A program made the translations under genes and the position numbers. The notes beneath the pieces are model-generated. The model saw only the letters and a program-made list of their open reading frames with translations, did no database searches and was not told the origin of the DNA. From assembly GCA_024281075.1 (NCBI GenBank), contig JAMXLK010000014.1:1-32879 (forward strand): a stretch of DNA of 32,879 nt, read 5' to 3'. Source of the DNA: Vulcanimicrobiia bacterium (GTDB lineage Bacteria; Vulcanimicrobiota; Vulcanimicrobiia; Vulcanimicrobiales; Vulcanimicrobiaceae). Positions 5,257-11,258 of this stretch are shown one piece after another (positions within the stretch are counted from its first letter, which is position 1; each line of letters opens with the position of its first letter).

Positions 5257-6318
5257 TTAGGCCGGCGGCCGGCCCGGGCGCGCGGTCGGATGCGCCTGGG
5301 CGCCGGCAGGCCGCGTGGGGAGCTGCGCGCTGCCGCTGAGCTCTTGACGAACGTGCGGGTGTTCGTTCATCGAGCCGCTGTAAAGATAGACGGAGCCGTT
5401 TTTTGACGTTGCGGTAACGACCGGTCCGCCGTTACCGACGGTCGCCTGTTTCGTCGTCGGATCGCCGCGCACTTGAGCATCGTCGCGGAAGCTCGATTCG
5501 ACATGGCCCGCGCCGCTATGCGCGCCGATCTGCGCGTTACCGCGTACGCCGAGCGCGACGTTGCCGTGCTCGGATTCGAAGCGCGCTAACCCCGGCTGAA
5601 AGTCGCCGTTGTCGTAGACGATCGAACCGTACGTGCTGTTTGCTTGGATTTGATGCGACGTGCAGCTTCGAAAGAGCATGTCGCCGGTGGCGGTGCGGGC
5701 ACGCAAGCGTTCGAACGTCGAGTCGGTTGCGACGACGCGCCCGCGCAGCGATTCGACGTAGGCCGTGCCGCCGACGCGATTGAGCGACACCTGGGCGCCG
5801 CGCACGTGCGCCACCAAGACGCCGTGGTAATCGTTGATCGTCAAGTGGCCGGCGCGCAAATGCGCAATCACCATCGCCGTCCCGCGCGGAATCATAATCG
5901 TCATCCGCCCGTTGCCGCGGGCCACGATCGCATCGTGCGGGCCGCCGGAAATCTCAGGAAGCACGAATGACTCGGCTGCAAGCGTCACGGGGCCGTGCTC
6001 GGTATCTATGCTATGCGACGGCATCTGGAACTGCTTGGGAATCCGCGGATCGACTTGGTCCGGGGTGAGGTGCCGGACGTCGGTGGGTTGTTCCGAGGCG
6101 ATGAGCACTTGCGGGCGGTCCCAGGTCTGAATCGTGACCTGGCCGCGGCCGCCGTTGACGTTGATGACCGGCGACGGGCCAACGTCAAACTCTTCGTCGG
6201 CCCGCGCGGGGGCGGCGAAGTTCAGGCAACAAAACGAGGCGACGAGCGTCACGAGTGCTCCCCGCCACCATCCTCGGCGCACGGCTTCATTGTATCGGGG
6301 GGCGCCGACGGGCATCAT
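5257..6318 (-). CDS. Secreted DUF4097-like repeat protein
   Basis: A 353-aa protein. An N-terminal signal peptide (basic start, hydrophobic GALVTLVASFCCLNFAAP, likely cleavage after ARA-40) leads to a region of short beta-strand repeats rich in G, N, D and V (for example HLRAGHLTINDYHGVLVAHV, STYGSIVYDNGDF, ATSKNGSVYLYSGS). This matches the beta-solenoid style of DUF4097 'putative adhesin' proteins. The C-terminal tail is Pro/Ala/Arg-rich. Its start overlaps the kinase stop by 4 bases (ATGA), so it is the last gene of the sigma/two-component transcript. In Firmicutes, DUF4097 proteins (LiaG/YvlB type) belong to cell-envelope stress responses; a similar role here is inference. Confidence 0.8.
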   Translation of the reverse strand: MMPVGAPRYNEAVRRGWWRGALVTLVASFCCLNFAAPARADEEFDVGPSPVINVNGGRGQVTIQTWDRPQVLIASEQPTDVRHLTPDQVDPRIPKQFQMPSHSIDTEHGPVTLAAESFVLPEISGGPHDAIVARGNGRMTIMIPRGTAMVIAHLRAGHLTINDYHGVLVAHVRGAQVSLNRVGGTAYVESLRGRVVATDSTFERLRARTATGDMLFRSCTSHQIQANSTYGSIVYDNGDFQPGLARFESEHGNVALGVRGNAQIGAHSGAGHVESSFRDDAQVRGDPTTKQATVGNGGPVVTATSKNGSVYLYSGSMNEHPHVRQELSGSAQLPTRPAGAQAHPTARPGRPPA

Positions 6319-7766
6319 GAAAGCTCGGTGAGCGGAAGCTTTATGCGAGGTAAGACAACACGGAAGAGCGCGCCGCCGCCCGGCGCCTTGCCCGCGGTCG
6401 CCTCACCGCCATGGACCCGGGCGATGGAACGGACGATCGCCAGCCCGAGCCCCGTCCCCGGCACGATGCGCGAACGCGCCTTATCCTCGCGATAGAATCG
6501 CTCGAAAATCTGCCCGCGTTCGCCCTCGGCGATTCCGGGGCCGGTGTCGGCAACTTCCACCCACGCCTGCTCGGGTGCTTCCCCGACCCGGACGTCAACG
6601 CGGCCGCGCTCCGTGAATTTGATTGCATTGTCGACCAGATTGCCGATCATCTGCCGCATCAAGGCGGCGTCGCCGTAGACGATCGGCGTGCCGCCGTGCT
6701 CGAATGTCAGATCGATTCGCTTTTCGGCGGCGCGCGGCATGGCGTTGTGTGCGACTTCACTCGCGATTTGTGCCAGCGAGAGCGGCTCTTTGGGAATCTC
6801 ATCGCCGCGGTCGGCCTTGGCGAGCGTGAGCATGCCGTTCACCATCCCGGCCAAGTCCGAGCTTTCGCGTACGATCGTCTCCAAGCTCTCGCGGCGGATC
6901 GTCGTATTTTGATCCCCCCATCGCAGCAGCATCTGGGCGTTTGCGTTGATCGAGGTCAACGGCGTTTTGAGCTCGTGCGATGCGTCGGAGATGAACTGCC
7001 GTTCGCGCGCAAATGCTTCGGCAAGCCGTGCAAGCAGATCGTTGAAGCTCTTGGCAAGCCGTCCGATCTCGTCGTCGCGCCGGCGCAGCCTGTTGCCGCC
7101 GACCTTGCCGTCCAGAGTTGAGGCCGCGAGTGAGAGCCGGTCGGAGCCGATCTCGCGCATCTCGCGCGCGAGCGCGTTAATCGGCGTCGTCACTTCGGAA
7201 GCAAACAGGATCGAGAAGATCACTACTGCGGCAGCCGTTGCGGCTAATACGACGGCAATCGCTTGGCGGGCGCGCCCGAACGTACGCTTCAGCGTGTCGA
7301 GCGGCTCGGCGACGTGAATGACCGCCGAGTTGGTGCCCTCGAGAAGGTAACGGTCTTCGACGAGGAACGGCCGGCCGCCGAGCACGATCTCCCGGTACGC
7401 CACGTCGTGGCCGGCGGAGAGCTTCGGATTGGTCGGTATGGTCGCTCCTCCCAGGTTCGCGGTTTTTGCCAGCGGGTAACCGTCGCCGGAATCGACCTGC
7501 ACGAAACTGTTTGCGGAGTTCCACGTGGCGAGGTTGGCGCTGTTGAAGAGAAATTGCAGCGTTCCCACCGACGGATCTTCAAGGGAGAACGGCGTCGTCG
7601 ACTGTTGGGCAAATTGCACGATCGCCTTCATCGTCGCGTTCACGCTCGTTTCGGCCTGATCGTAGAGAATCTGCTGAAAGCGCCAGACGATGAGCCCGCT
7701 CATCGCCGTCATGGCGACGATGAGCAGAACCGAATATCCCAGCGCGATGCGCCACTTTAGCGACAT
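6315..7766 (-). CDS. Sensor histidine kinase (HAMP-HisKA-HATPase)
   Basis: A 483-aa membrane kinase. TM1 spans about residues 8-29, an extracytoplasmic sensor domain about 30-165, and TM2 about 168-190. A HAMP linker (about 190-245) follows, then HisKA with the phospho-acceptor H264 in SDASHELKTPLTSI. The ATPase domain shows the N box (NLVDNAIKFTERG), G1 box (DTGPGIAEGERGQIFERFYR) and G2 box (GTGLGLAIVRS). All catalytic motifs are intact. It lies 22 bases downstream of the response regulator gene and is surely its partner. The sensor domain matches nothing I recognise, so the signal is unknown; the co-transcribed DUF4097-like protein suggests an envelope cue. Confidence 0.95.
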   Translation of the reverse strand: MSLKWRIALGYSVLLIVAMTAMSGLIVWRFQQILYDQAETSVNATMKAIVQFAQQSTTPFSLEDPSVGTLQFLFNSANLATWNSANSFVQVDSGDGYPLAKTANLGGATIPTNPKLSAGHDVAYREIVLGGRPFLVEDRYLLEGTNSAVIHVAEPLDTLKRTFGRARQAIAVVLAATAAAVVIFSILFASEVTTPINALAREMREIGSDRLSLAASTLDGKVGGNRLRRRDDEIGRLAKSFNDLLARLAEAFARERQFISDASHELKTPLTSINANAQMLLRWGDQNTTIRRESLETIVRESSDLAGMVNGMLTLAKADRGDEIPKEPLSLAQIASEVAHNAMPRAAEKRIDLTFEHGGTPIVYGDAALMRQMIGNLVDNAIKFTERGRVDVRVGEAPEQAWVEVADTGPGIAEGERGQIFERFYREDKARSRIVPGTGLGLAIVRSIARVHGGEATAGKAPGGGALFRVVLPRIKLPLTELS

Positions 7767-7788: not shown

Positions 7789-8481
7789 TTAGTCCTTGAT
7801 CGTATAGCCTACGCCCCGGACCGTCGTGATGAGCTTGTCGTCGAAGCCGTCGTCGATCTTTCCGCGCAGATACCGAATGTAGACGTCGATCAAGTTCGAA
7901 TCGCCGAGAAAATCGCTGCCCCAGACGCCGTTGAAGAGCTCGTCGCGTGTGTGCACTTTATTGCGGTGCAGCAGCAGGTACTCCAGCAGGGCGTACTCCT
8001 TGGCCGTCAGCGAGATCGGCTTCCCGCCGCGATGCACTTCGTGGCGATCGCGATCCATCACGACGTCGCGATACGTGATCACGTTGCCTTGCGGCGTGCG
8101 CTCGCGCAGCCGCGCGCGAACGCGTGCCAGCAGCTCGTCGGTCGAAAACGGTTTGACGATGTAATCGTCGGCGCCGACGTCGAGACCGGCCACACGGTCC
8201 GGCACCCGGTCGCGCGCGGTCAGCATGATGATGGGAACGCGGCTCTTGGCACGAATCCGTTTGCAGACCTCCATGCCGTCCATGCGCGGAAGCATGAGAT
8301 CCAAGATCACCAGATCGGGTTCTTTGAGCGCTTTTTCGAGGCCGGCAAGTCCGTCGCGTGCGACCTCGATTTCGTAGCCTTCGTGTTCCAGCTCGAGTTG
8401 TAAGACGCGGCTGATCGCCGCGTCGTCCTCGATGATCAGGACTCTATACGGGCGCCGCTCCTGCGGTGCGTGTTTCTCCAT
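7789..8481 (-). CDS. OmpR/PhoB-family response regulator
   Basis: A 230-aa two-domain regulator. The receiver domain (about 12-125) has the acidic pair in LIIEDD, the phospho-acceptor D61 in VILDLMLPRMDG, the T in IIMLTA and the K in IVKPFS. A winged-helix DNA-binding domain (about 137-228) follows, with LTAKEYALLEYLL, a DELFNGVWGSDF turn, NLIDVYIRYLRGKID and the terminal VRGVGYTI typical of the OmpR family. The start is ATG 8481, one codon cluster before a hydrophilic leader. No Shine-Dalgarno is visible; instead a 15-base palindrome sits directly upstream (8483-8497). It precedes the kinase gene in the same orientation. Confidence 0.95.
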   Translation of the reverse strand: MEKHAPQERRPYRVLIIEDDAAISRVLQLELEHEGYEIEVARDGLAGLEKALKEPDLVILDLMLPRMDGMEVCKRIRAKSRVPIIMLTARDRVPDRVAGLDVGADDYIVKPFSTDELLARVRARLRERTPQGNVITYRDVVMDRDRHEVHRGGKPISLTAKEYALLEYLLLHRNKVHTRDELFNGVWGSDFLGDSNLIDVYIRYLRGKIDDGFDDKLITTVRGVGYTIKD

Positions 8482-8482
8482 G

Positions 8483-8497
8483 ACGATACATTATCGT
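8483..8497. promoter_or_regulatory. Palindrome before the response regulator start
   Basis: ACGATA-CAT-TATCGT is a perfect 6+6 inverted repeat with a 3-base centre. It lies 2 bases upstream of the response regulator ATG and contains the stop codon of the preceding membrane-protein gene (8491-8493). It occupies the place where a Shine-Dalgarno would be expected. It may be a protein-binding site or a small RNA hairpin affecting translation; function unproven. Confidence 0.35.
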
Positions 8498-8868
8498 GCG
8501 TCCTGTCTGTCGGACCTGTGAGAAAGCGCCGCAATCGGGTGACTTCCCGTGAGAAGCGTGAGCCAGAGCGCCGCCGCGCTGCCCGCGGCGAGCCACGAAA
8601 CGAACGCGACGTTCGAGAAGCTGCGCAAAACAACCGAGCTAATCGCCGAGAGCGTGTGGACGAAGAGCGACCCGCCCCCCGAGACCAGGAGCACGATGAG
8701 CCAGAGCGCGACGGCGCCGAGCGTGCCGAACACGGCCACTTCGTGAAGCGAAAAAGCCGGGACCGGGCGGTGGTACGCCGTGGCGAGCAAGATTGACGCA
8801 CGCAAGCCGTCGGGCGGCTCCTCCAGCGGGAGCTCCATGATTGCGCGTTCGAGTTCGTCCATCGTCAC
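8491..8868 (-). CDS. Small two-helix membrane protein, candidate anti-sigma factor
   Basis: A 125-aa protein. A short acidic cytoplasmic N-terminus (MDELERAIMELPLEEPPDGLR) precedes two likely transmembrane helices, at about 45-65 (VAVFGTLGAVALWLIVLLVS) and about 88-107 (VAFVSWLAAGSAAALWLTLL). The start overlaps the ECF sigma factor stop by 4 bases (ATGA). Position, size and topology fit a membrane anti-sigma factor, but there is no HxxxCxxC zinc motif, and indeed no cysteine at all, so it would be a non-ZAS type. I recognise no Pfam family. The anti-sigma role is inferred from gene order only. Confidence 0.75.
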   Translation of the reverse strand: MTMDELERAIMELPLEEPPDGLRASILLATAYHRPVPAFSLHEVAVFGTLGAVALWLIVLLVSGGGSLFVHTLSAISSVVLRSFSNVAFVSWLAAGSAAALWLTLLTGSHPIAALSHRSDRQDAR

Positions 8869-9518
8869 GATTCGGTTACCTCCGTCCCGCTCAGAAGCCT
8901 GCGCAGCTGCTCCTTCGCGCGAAATAAATGCGTTTTTACCGTACCCATCGGCAGGCCGAGTACCGTCGCGATCTCTTCGTACTGCTTACCTTGAAGGTGA
9001 AAGAGCGTCACGACCGTGCGATACTTTTCGGGCAGCGAATCAATTGCGGCGCGTAGCCGGGAGGCCTCGTCGAGCGCGATGACGCGCGCTTCGGGCCCCG
9101 GCGCCGCATCGGCGCGATCCGGCAGCTCCTCGCTTGCATAGTGCTTTCGCCGGTTCAGCCGGTCGCAGCACGCGTGATACGTAATCGCGAAGATCCAGGT
9201 CGAGAATTTGGAGCCTTGCCGGAAGGTCCGCAGGCTGCGAAACGCTTTGAAAAACGCCTCCTGCGTCGCGTCGCGCGCCTCTTCGACGTCGTGCAGCGTC
9301 CGGTACGCCAGATGGTAGACGGCACGGTCGTACCGCTCCACCAGCGTCGCAAACGCCTCCGTGTTGCCGCGGAGCGTCAACGCTACCAAATCGCCGTCCG
9401 CCGGCTCAGCTTTCACGTGCACGGCCGGGGCTCGCAACGTGTCCTGAGCGAGCGGAGCGAGTCGAAGGAGCCTGTCCTGAGCGAGCGGAGCGAGTCGAAG
9501 GGGCAAGAGTGCCGACAC
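8865..9518 (-). CDS. ECF RNA polymerase sigma factor
   Basis: A 217-aa sigma-70 family protein with region 2 (about 48-115: AFATLVERYDRAVYHLAYR, ATQEAFFKAFRSLRTF, KFSTWIFAITYHACCDRLNRRK) and region 4 (about 155-210: LPEKYRTVVTLFHLQG, YEEIATVLGLPMGTVKTHLFRAKEQLRRLL). Regions 1 and 3 are absent, as expected for an ECF factor of the RpoE/SigW type. The start is uncertain. GTG 9518 gives a 32-residue extension that is a translated tandem REP repeat (twice the 11-mer LRLAPLAQDxL). Starting at GTG 9422 or 9416 gives about 185 aa, the usual ECF length, and leaves the repeats in the leader. It heads the minus-strand regulatory transcript. Confidence 0.93.
   Translation of the reverse strand: MSALLPLRLAPLAQDRLLRLAPLAQDTLRAPAVHVKAEPADGDLVALTLRGNTEAFATLVERYDRAVYHLAYRTLHDVEEARDATQEAFFKAFRSLRTFRQGSKFSTWIFAITYHACCDRLNRRKHYASEELPDRADAAPGPEARVIALDEASRLRAAIDSLPEKYRTVVTLFHLQGKQYEEIATVLGLPMGTVKTHLFRAKEQLRRLLSGTEVTES
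9441..9501. repeat. Tandem REP-like element (two copies)
   Basis: Two identical 28-base units, at 9441-9468 and 9474-9501, read GTCCTGAGCGAGCGGAGCGA followed by GTCGAAGG. Their period is 33 bases. Each unit is partly self-complementary (CGAGCGGAGCG core) and shares CTGAGC...GTCGAAGG with the elements at 11259-11277 and 14559-14601. The pair lies at the 5' end of the sigma factor reading frame, where the 33-base period keeps frame and encodes an 11-residue repeat. Confidence 0.85.
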
Positions 9519-9526
9519 GCCTCTTT

Positions 9527-9552
9527 TACGCGGCAGCCCGGCCCGTTGTTTC
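9527..9552 (-). promoter_or_regulatory. Predicted ECF-type promoter for the sigma factor operon
   Basis: On the minus strand, GAAAC (9548-9552) is followed after 17 bases by CGTA (9527-9530). This is the pattern of SigW-like ECF promoters (GAAAC, 16-17 bases, CGTA). It would start transcription near 9520, just upstream of the sigma factor frame, suggesting autoregulation. The -35 is one half of the palindrome GTTTCGAAAC (9548-9557) shared with the divergent promoter. Confidence 0.5.
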
Positions 9553-9577
9553 GAAACATCCGGGCCGCCGCGCCGTA
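9553..9577 (+). promoter_or_regulatory. Predicted ECF-type promoter for the DUF4097/membrane protein pair
   Basis: On the plus strand, GAAAC (9553-9557) is followed after 16 bases by CGTA (9574-9577), mirroring the minus-strand promoter from the same palindrome. The predicted transcript would start near 9584 and carry about 160 bases of leader before the ATG at 9745. Function is inferred from pattern and context. Confidence 0.5.
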
Positions 9578-9744
9578 ACTGGGGCAGGAACTTTTACGGA
9601 GGCCCAACCCAAAAATGACCACGATCCCGAACAAAACTCTTCCCCGCGGTATCCGCTCCGAGCGGCCGACTCTGCCGCAAGATGACCGGAACTCCGCGCA
9701 ATCCCTGCGCCCCACCTTTGACGGCTGGGGGCCGAGGCTCTAAA

Positions 9745-10662
9745 ATGTCGCGCGCAACGGTCGTCGCGATGCTCCTCGCGGCCGAGATTGCGATCGTCGG
9801 CATGGCGATCTACGCGCTCGGACGCGGCGGCACGTCGTTTGCCGCAAGCTTGCATTCGCCGGATTTCGCCGCGGCGCCGATCGCGCCGCTCGCGGCCGGC
9901 GCGACGCCCCACGTCGTCATCGACGATCCGCGCTCGCGCGTCATCGTCGGCACGTCGGGTGACGAGCTGGTCCACGTGCGCGATCTGACGCGCATCCGCG
10001 GCGCCGTCTTCTCGAGCGGTCCATATCCGCACTTGACGGCTACCCGCACGGCCGACGGCGTGCGCATCGCGCGACCCGACGGGGGCCGCGCCACCTTCAG
10101 CATTTTTGACATGAGCGTGCAGCGCATCGAAGTCGACGTGCCGCCCGGCGCGCGCCTAGAGGTCGCACGGTGCGAAGGCGCGGAGGTCAATGGCCTCGAC
10201 GGCGGCGTGAGCGTTCATTCGGTTGACGGCCACATCAGCCTGAGCGATCTGCGCGGCAGCGTCGATGCGCACAGCGATGACGGCTATATCAGCGCGACGA
10301 ACGTGCGCGGCGACCGCCTCGCGATGGAATCGATGGACGGGCATCTCTCGCTCGACAACGTTGCCGTCAACTCGCTGGTCGGCACGACGCGCGACGGCCA
10401 TATCGAGGCCGGCAATTTGAGCGTCGGAAACGACGCGAGCCTGCAGACCGCCGATGGATGGATGCGCGTACGCTTCGCGCCCGGCGCCGACGTCACCGTC
10501 GATGCCTCGACGCGCGACGGAAAGATCACCGTCGACGGATTCTCAAGCGATAACGACTCTTCCGCGCAGCGCACGATCCGTCTCGGCGCGGGCACCGGCC
10601 GCGTGAAGTTGGCCACCGATGACGGATCGATTCACATTACCACCAACGGAGCATTCCAATAA
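9745..10662 (+). CDS. Membrane-anchored DUF4097 family beta-strand repeat protein
   Basis: 305 aa. ATG 9745 is chosen because GAGG (9734-9737) lies 7 bases upstream and the hydrophobic segment follows at once (MSRATVVAMLLAAEIAIVGMAIYAL). An upstream in-frame start at 9682 would add a non-hydrophobic leader. The rest is a run of short repeats with a D-G turn (SVHSVDGHISLSDLRG, AHSDDGYISATNVRG, ESMDGHLSLDNV, TTRDGHIEAGNL, DDGSIHITTN), the classic DUF4097 beta-solenoid. The protein is probably held by one N-terminal helix with the solenoid outside the membrane. The stop overlaps the next start (TAATG). It is divergent from the sigma factor and in the same locus as a second DUF4097-like protein. 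Confidence 0.85.
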   Translation: MSRATVVAMLLAAEIAIVGMAIYALGRGGTSFAASLHSPDFAAAPIAPLAAGATPHVVIDDPRSRVIVGTSGDELVHVRDLTRIRGAVFSSGPYPHLTATRTADGVRIARPDGGRATFSIFDMSVQRIEVDVPPGARLEVARCEGAEVNGLDGGVSVHSVDGHISLSDLRGSVDAHSDDGYISATNVRGDRLAMESMDGHLSLDNVAVNSLVGTTRDGHIEAGNLSVGNDASLQTADGWMRVRFAPGADVTVDASTRDGKITVDGFSSDNDSSAQRTIRLGAGTGRVKLATDDGSIHITTNGAFQ

Positions 10663-11258
10663 TGGATGACAACATCGTAGCCGCCCTTGCCGTAACGTGC
10701 ATCTTCGGATTGCCGGTCATGGGCTGGATCGTCTCGCGAGTTCTCGCGCACCAGGAGCGTATGGAGATGCTGCGCCGCGGCGTCGTGCCGCCGCCCAACG
10801 CGCGCGACATGCGGCGCGCCATGAAGCACGGCTGGACGCCCGGCGCAGCTCCGCAAGACATGGCGAACCACTATGATTACTATCCGCATGACTTCTACGC
10901 TCAGCAGCAGCTGCGCAGGGGCATGCAAGTCGCCTGCATCGGATTGGCACTTCTGATCGGTTTGAGCTTCATCGGAAACCGCGGCGGCGTGTGGTACCCG
11001 GGTCCCTGGCTCCTGGGCGGACTGATCCCCCTCTTCGTGGGAATCGCCCAGATCATCAGCGCCGTGCTCGGCGGAGCCAGCTTCGGCCCGGCGTCGACCC
11101 GGCAGCGCTTCGGCCCGGGTCCGTCGACGGCGTCGGGGACGCCCGGCCCGCAGAGTGCCGGAGCGGTTCCTCCGGGGCCGGCCACGTACGGCGGCTGGCG
11201 CCCGGGCCCGACGCCCGAGATCGAGAAGCCGGCCTCACCCCCCGACTACCGCGGCTGA
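10662..11258 (+). CDS. Small membrane protein, DUF6249-like
   Basis: A 198-aa protein translationally coupled to the DUF4097 gene. There are three hydrophobic stretches: about 5-25 (IVAALAVTCIFGLPVMGWIV), about 88-105 (ACIGLALLIGLSFIG) and about 113-133 (WLLGGLIPLFVGIAQIISAVL). After the first helix comes HQERMEMLRRGVVPPP, resembling the post-helix motif of DUF6249-type proteins, a resemblance I cannot verify. The C-terminal 60 residues are Pro/Gly-rich and probably disordered. Function is unknown; it probably works with the DUF4097 partner. A REP-like element begins on the base after its stop codon. Confidence 0.75.
   Translation: MDDNIVAALAVTCIFGLPVMGWIVSRVLAHQERMEMLRRGVVPPPNARDMRRAMKHGWTPGAAPQDMANHYDYYPHDFYAQQQLRRGMQVACIGLALLIGLSFIGNRGGVWYPGPWLLGGLIPLFVGIAQIISAVLGGASFGPASTRQRFGPGPSTASGTPGPQSAGAVPPGPATYGGWRPGPTPEIEKPASPPDYRG

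Follow-up and report, generated by a model that had tools for sequence, protein, structure and literature searches.

A divergent pair of SigW-like ECF promoters, most likely read by the adjoining sigma factor, between a sigma factor operon and a toastrack (DUF4097) operon in Candidatus Eremiobacterota

Introduction

Does a palindrome between two diverging operons act as a single shared element, or does it consist of two neighbouring promoter elements that touch each other? This question is raised by the sequence GTTTCGAAAC (positions 9548-9557, both strands) in a 32,879-nucleotide stretch of DNA of a Vulcanimicrobiaceae genome (hereafter referred to as the window). The original prediction regarded it as one palindrome serving two divergent ECF-type promoters, with one bound polymerase possibly excluding the other. 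The letters and coordinates on which it was built were correct. The minus strand, directed toward an ECF sigma factor operon, carries GAAAC-N17-CGTA (9552-9527; -35 element at 9548-9552, -10 element at 9527-9530), and the plus strand, directed toward a DUF4097 operon, carries GAAAC-N16-CGTA (9553-9577; -35 element at 9553-9557, -10 element at 9574-9577); the two -35 elements abut with zero gap. ECF promoters are characterized by AAC in the -35 and CGT in the -10 element, as stated in the promoter passages of PMC8103513, and the motif found here contains both, 16-17 nt apart.

Results

Gene content of the two operons

Judged by gene strand and closeness, two putative operons diverge from this region. 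The minus-strand operon would comprise the sigma factor gene (8865-9518, GTG at 9518), a gene for a small protein overlapping it (8491-8868), and the genes for an OmpR-type response regulator (7789-8481), a sensor histidine kinase (6315-7766) and, in the last position, a DUF4097 (toastrack) protein (5257-6318). The plus-strand operon would start with a microprotein gene (9615-9743, see below), followed by the genes for a second DUF4097 protein (9745-10662, its ATG 1 nt past the microprotein stop) and a DUF6249 protein (10662-11258). Both toastrack proteins match Pfam PF13349 (49.3 and 28.4 bits, cut-off 22.9).

The sigma factor belongs to the ECF type (group IV), as its 217 amino acids contain Sigma70_r2 and Sigma70_r4_2 only (TIGR02937, 114 bits, cut-off 42.9). 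It does not reach the cut-offs of the SigW equivalog models (TIGR02948, 118.2 versus 243.1 bits; NF007223, 134.9 versus 209 bits) and is therefore SigW-like rather than SigW. The overlapping 8491-8868 protein has hydrophobic stretches (by eye), and its LDRALxxLPLEEPPxxLRxxIL-like N-terminus is largely conserved among 48 homologs from named records; the protein gave no Pfam or NCBIfam match. Its position and its N-terminus make it a candidate membrane anti-sigma factor.

Conservation of the promoter pair

Taken by itself, the window is weak evidence, since counts in the window and in the genome barely exceed chance. The palindrome occurs once in the window (expected 0.06; at least one copy in 6 of 100 shuffles), GAAAC-N16/17-CGTA occurs twice where 0.42 would be expected (a count of two is reached in 5 of 100 shuffles), and the whole genome contains 57 matches compared with 38 for the reversed pattern. 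At this level the whole pattern could be a product of chance in GC-rich DNA. What speaks against chance is the comparison of 87 orthologous loci (ortholog cut-off, E below 1e-70) from 86 of the 99 genomes and 34 of the 38 genera of one family of Candidatus Eremiobacterota. Twelve genomes without an ortholog at E 1e-45 and one with a split gene (G067) were left out, and one genome (G070) contributes two loci. Within the upstream 200 nt, the exact motif is directed toward the sigma gene in 82 of the 87 loci, toward the divergent gene in 81 and in both directions in 78, whereas 50 dinucleotide shuffles per locus gave means of 0.08, 0.08 and 0, respectively. This difference points to a genuine divergent ECF promoter pair that is, on comparative sequence grounds, real and conserved, and it makes a chance origin extremely improbable.

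Homologous loci were thus checked for a missing GAAAC/CGTA pair and were found to have kept it, and the prediction of two divergent ECF-type promoters between the sigma and DUF4097 operons stands. At least one locus with both exact sites is present in 32 of the 34 genera. Under a lax criterion (spacers 15-18), eight of the nine loci that do not have both exact sites carry, on either side, a site deviating by no more than one mismatch, and the ninth (L110) possesses an exact divergent site, but at a greater distance. Among 27 distant homologs from outside the order (L159-L185), six have a sigma-directed site (five exact, one relaxed), and a single one, L171, shows a divergent pair, in relaxed form.

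The following counts refer to the 79 loci with an exact pair. The spacer on the sigma side is 17 nt long in 60 and 16 nt in 19 of them, and that on the divergent side is 16 nt in 67 and 17 nt in 12. The way these pairs were selected makes GAAAC and CGTA invariant in their logo; around the two motifs, only a C preceding and an A following GAAAC are prominent, and most spacer columns have no more than 0.7 bits.

The neighbouring genes are retained as well. In tblastn searches over the 87 loci, several of which are cut by contig ends, the candidate anti-sigma factor and the response regulator were each found in 84 loci, and DUF6249 was found in 85. The DUF4097 gene is absent from view in a number of loci, and DUF6249 comes first there. 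In the sister family, GAAAC-N17-CGTA-N8-ATG precedes DUF6249 in both loci (L256, L257), giving this gene a leaderless-type start, and the -10 element on the sigma side reads GCTA instead of CGTA (by eye).

The palindrome and the distance between the -35 elements

The 16- and 17-nt spacers are thus kept in related genomes, while the palindrome is not. Of the 79 exact pairs, 3 have their GAAACs at distance 0, 18 at 12 bp, 9 at 13 bp and 7 at 24 bp; the distance ranges from 0 to 48 bp with a single outlier of 309 bp (L110), and 12 bp is the commonest value. The idea of one palindrome serving both promoters does not hold, as each promoter has its own GAAAC and the two abut so rarely that the palindrome has to be regarded as two touching neighbours instead of a shared element. 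As a functional unit it was rejected on the same count. The comparison indicates that it is a lineage-specific accident of two closely spaced conserved elements. In L110, tandem units of ~45 bp of a dispersed-type repeat lie between the two promoters.

The same distances bear on the proposal that the palindrome is an operator or shared element at which a bound polymerase excludes the other one, resulting in an either/or switch. The -35 elements do abut in the window, and the gap does not exceed 13 bp in 50 of the 79 exact pairs; at such gaps, two polymerases would probably overlap upstream of the -35 elements. However, this geometry is not conserved: apart from the rarity of gap 0 and the 309 bp of L110, gaps of 24 to 48 bp are present in many loci, close relatives among them, and the nearest relative of the window (L025) has a gap of 48 bp. 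Furthermore, an either/or output is not expected if the same factor acts at both promoters. We consider such a switch rather unlikely.

A gap of 12 bp is found in 11 genera of the family and, by eye, in both sister-family loci, and is therefore likely the ancestral value (as read on the tree); the palindrome would then probably be a derived, zero-gap form. For one locus from each of these 11 genera and one sister-family locus, the mean identity of the gap letters is 0.335 over all 12 columns versus 0.272 in shuffled controls (sd 0.013), and 0.286 versus 0.266 (sd 0.016) over the inner 10 columns, i.e., the excess is located mostly at the edge bases adjoining GAAAC. As the letters are hardly conserved beyond these edges, it may be the length that is held by selection. 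Concerning helical phasing, 50 distinct genus/gap values gave p ≤0.0005 at periods of 10.5-12; after thinning by hand for shared ancestry to 39 values, p was 0.03-0.05 at 11.5-12 (two nulls, uncorrected for the nine periods tried). Shifts of the gap in steps of 11-12 bp are thus only suggestive.

Transcription starts and the sigma factor mRNA

On the divergent side, the position 8 nt after CGTA is a pyrimidine in 74 and the following position a purine in 78 of the 79 exact-pair loci, and mostly there is no start codon of the first gene at either place. This pyrimidine-purine pattern suggests a transcription start at the A in position 9586 (CGTA+9, plus strand). The corresponding signal is weaker on the sigma side (61/79 and 58/79), where the start would fall on position 9518 (minus strand). 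The sites forecast originally, near 9584 and 9520, are close to these positions.

The GTG of the sigma gene at 9518 is located 8 nt past CGTA, that is, at the inferred +1. In 54 of the 82 loci used for this count, the first in-frame start codon is found at exactly this distance, and three more have an earlier start in addition to one at 8 nt; in the remaining loci it is found at 9 nt (8 loci), 11-12 nt (14 loci) or elsewhere (3 loci). In five loci an in-frame stop codon lies 2 nt past CGTA, which excludes an earlier start there. Within the genus of the window, between 9 and 32 codons separate the start codon from the conserved domain, a variation due in part to copies of a dispersed repeat. 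Nevertheless, the length changes past the start keep the frame in all 15 same-genus loci, which makes the upstream GTG the most likely site of translation initiation. With the start codon at the presumed +1, the sigma factor mRNA is probably leaderless.

The genome of the window carries seven copies of this dispersed 27-nt repeat (at most two mismatches), two of which (9442-9468 and 9475-9501, minus strand) lie in frame in the N-terminal coding region of the sigma gene. Inserts resembling the repeat (by eye) are also present in L025, L027, L031, L032, L035 and L047. In one genus (g37; L094, L095, L097, L099-L101, L103, L104, L106, L108 and L109), the DUF4097 gene itself looks leaderless, with CGTA-N8-ATG.

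A conserved microprotein

The first reading frame downstream of the plus-strand promoter is an unannotated one that encodes a 42-amino-acid microprotein (9615-9743), preceded by a Shine-Dalgarno-like GGAGG (9598-9602). The protein ends with RPTFDGWGPRL; its terminal F-x-G-W-G-P, followed in the window by two further residues, is invariant in 26 aligned copies. By motif it is present in 32 of the 87 loci (13 genera), and by profile in 36 of the 99 genomes, a number that includes the 26 rows from which the profile was built. The 38 profile matches are distributed between the sigma locus (33), the genome G045 (two) and three weak hits. In G045, which is 77% complete and in which no sigma ortholog was found, they are located on contigs C123 and C80. 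In the final 16 codons, compared among 14 same-genus loci, differences at the three codon positions amount to 0.10, 0.009 and 0.42, i.e., substitutions are of the coding type. The stop codon overlaps the next start or lies at most 2 nt from it in 23 of the 32 loci. The microprotein, which has no Pfam match, may act as a peptide in its own right or serve as a regulatory leader peptide.

Unlinked sites and the identity of the reading sigma factor

Genome-wide matches had been expected to cluster upstream of a regulon. What was found bears this out only in part, as a small excess next to start codons and one well-supported unlinked target. In 18 genomes of the genus, the motif followed by N8-RTG occurs 43 times versus 9 for the reversed pattern (the sigma gene itself accounts for 15 of the 43), with N8-12 143 versus 46 times and with N3-7 83 versus 52 times; some of the latter represent the sigma locus with an extra start codon. 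Family-wide, the 99 genomes contain 791 start-adjacent (N8-12) matches versus 350 reversed ones, and the regulon is therefore small.

The well-supported target is an unlinked gene for a secreted-type DUF885 protein. Among its 12 orthologs with at least 61% identity, the exact motif is present upstream in 10, and the start codon is at N8 or N9 in 8; without the four orthologs picked by the motif, the numbers are 6/8 and 4/8, respectively. Seven homologs with 40-45% identity have no exact site. Six of 16 loci for a 142-amino-acid membrane protein, which has hydrophobic stretches, combine the motif with a start at N7-9; one of the six belongs to the genome of the window. Without the two loci picked by the motif, the count is 4 of 14. 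Further candidates confined, or almost confined, to a single species are alpha/beta hydrolases (L200, L207) and aspartyl-protease-like, DUF4386 and CAAX-protease-like proteins.

These unlinked sites also help to judge whether the inverted GAAAC pair binds the response regulator of the operon, CGTA being incidental. An OmpR-type regulator is indeed encoded beside the pair, and an arrangement of inverted half-sites 12 bp apart is found repeatedly. Nevertheless, CGTA follows each GAAAC after 16 or 17 nt in 78 of the 87 loci, the gap varies widely, and single GAAAC-N17-CGTA sites precede the unlinked DUF885 genes. Binding of the response regulator is thus very unlikely, and the reading as a pair of ECF promoters is preferred.

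Which sigma factor reads them can be inferred only, as the genome has 15 sigma region-2 matches. The promoters may be real and yet depend chiefly on a different ECF sigma factor of the cell, and the motif excess does persist where the adjoining sigma was not found: start-adjacent (N8-12) matches are 62 versus 38 in the 12 genomes lacking a detected ortholog and 729 versus 312 in the 87 genomes possessing it, and, for genomes at least 90% complete, 24 versus 16 (4 genomes) and 511 versus 196 (53 genomes), respectively. Without the ortholog the excess is smaller yet above the control, and these genomes are too few to define the regulon by sigma absence. On the other hand, the motif accompanies the sigma gene throughout 34 genera; moreover, according to passages of PMC8103513, most ECF operons are positively autoregulated, with ~55% predicted to be autoregulated. 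Reading mainly by another sigma factor is thus unlikely, and autoregulation by the adjoining one is likely.

Discussion

The palindrome appears to be the point of contact of two promoters. We are highly confident in the overall picture of a divergent, SigW-like ECF promoter pair, most likely read by the adjoining sigma factor, with both operons and a few unlinked genes co-induced, the sigma mRNA probably leaderless and the palindrome derived. In the proposed circuit, the first promoter would drive the genes for the sigma factor, the candidate membrane anti-sigma factor, the response regulator, the histidine kinase and a toastrack protein, and the second one those for the microprotein, a toastrack protein and DUF6249. 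Once set free by a signal, which is probably envelope stress, the sigma factor would turn on both operons along with a small number of unlinked genes whose products are secreted or located in the membrane. The outcome would be a positive feedback loop rather than an either/or switch.

A more far-reaching version, in which the pair is a coupled unit, is tentative and in our opinion doubtful. The 12-bp distance between the -35 elements would have been selected over two families despite the turnover of its letters, later shifts would have been close to whole steps of 11-12 bp, and the leaderless sigma mRNA would place the feedback loop on an initiation route other than that of the Shine-Dalgarno-led microprotein and toastrack genes opposite.

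The analysis yields a promoter code that applies across a family of uncultured bacteria and makes their ECF stress circuit open to testing. Toastrack proteins become linked to an ECF sigma factor through their promoter as well as their position, and two further features are brought to light, a conserved microprotein that had not been annotated and a sigma gene that is probably leaderless. The case also illustrates how two conserved elements can, by an accident of one lineage, form a conspicuous palindrome.

Several components of this picture are already known: passages of PMC8103513 cover autoregulation, ECF promoters of the AAC/CGT type and the control of a divergent operon by one and the same ECF response (EcfG/PhyR). 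In the latter system of Alphaproteobacteria, ecfG or nepR-ecfG and the divergent phyR similarly have promoters of the same response; it differs in its -10 element (CGTT) and its other partner genes, and the passages of PMC8103513 dealing with it mention neither toastrack proteins nor a microprotein. The toastrack neighbourhoods presented in PMC11237479 likewise include two-component systems and an operonically linked sigma factor, whereas the divergent layout, its promoters and the microprotein are not described in the corresponding passages. In the literature searched on ECF sigma factors, divergent promoters, DUF4097 and Eremiobacterota, no divergent unit with a probably leaderless sigma gene, a recurring gap and a microprotein was found.

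The consensus of sigma-W promoters is of the GAAAC/CGTA type, and in Bacillus subtilis sigW and yvlABCD are separate loci. This sigma-W/yvlABCD system resembles the one described here in having an ECF sigma factor, a promoter of the same type and a DUF4097 gene in the core regulon: yvlB is a DUF4097 gene according to a passage of PMC9239133 and is listed in the core sigma-W regulon in a table of PMC3498285. In contrast to B. subtilis, the sigma factor and DUF4097 operons studied here are divergent neighbours, a two-component system is encoded in the sigma operon, and a probably leaderless sigma mRNA faces a microprotein gene.
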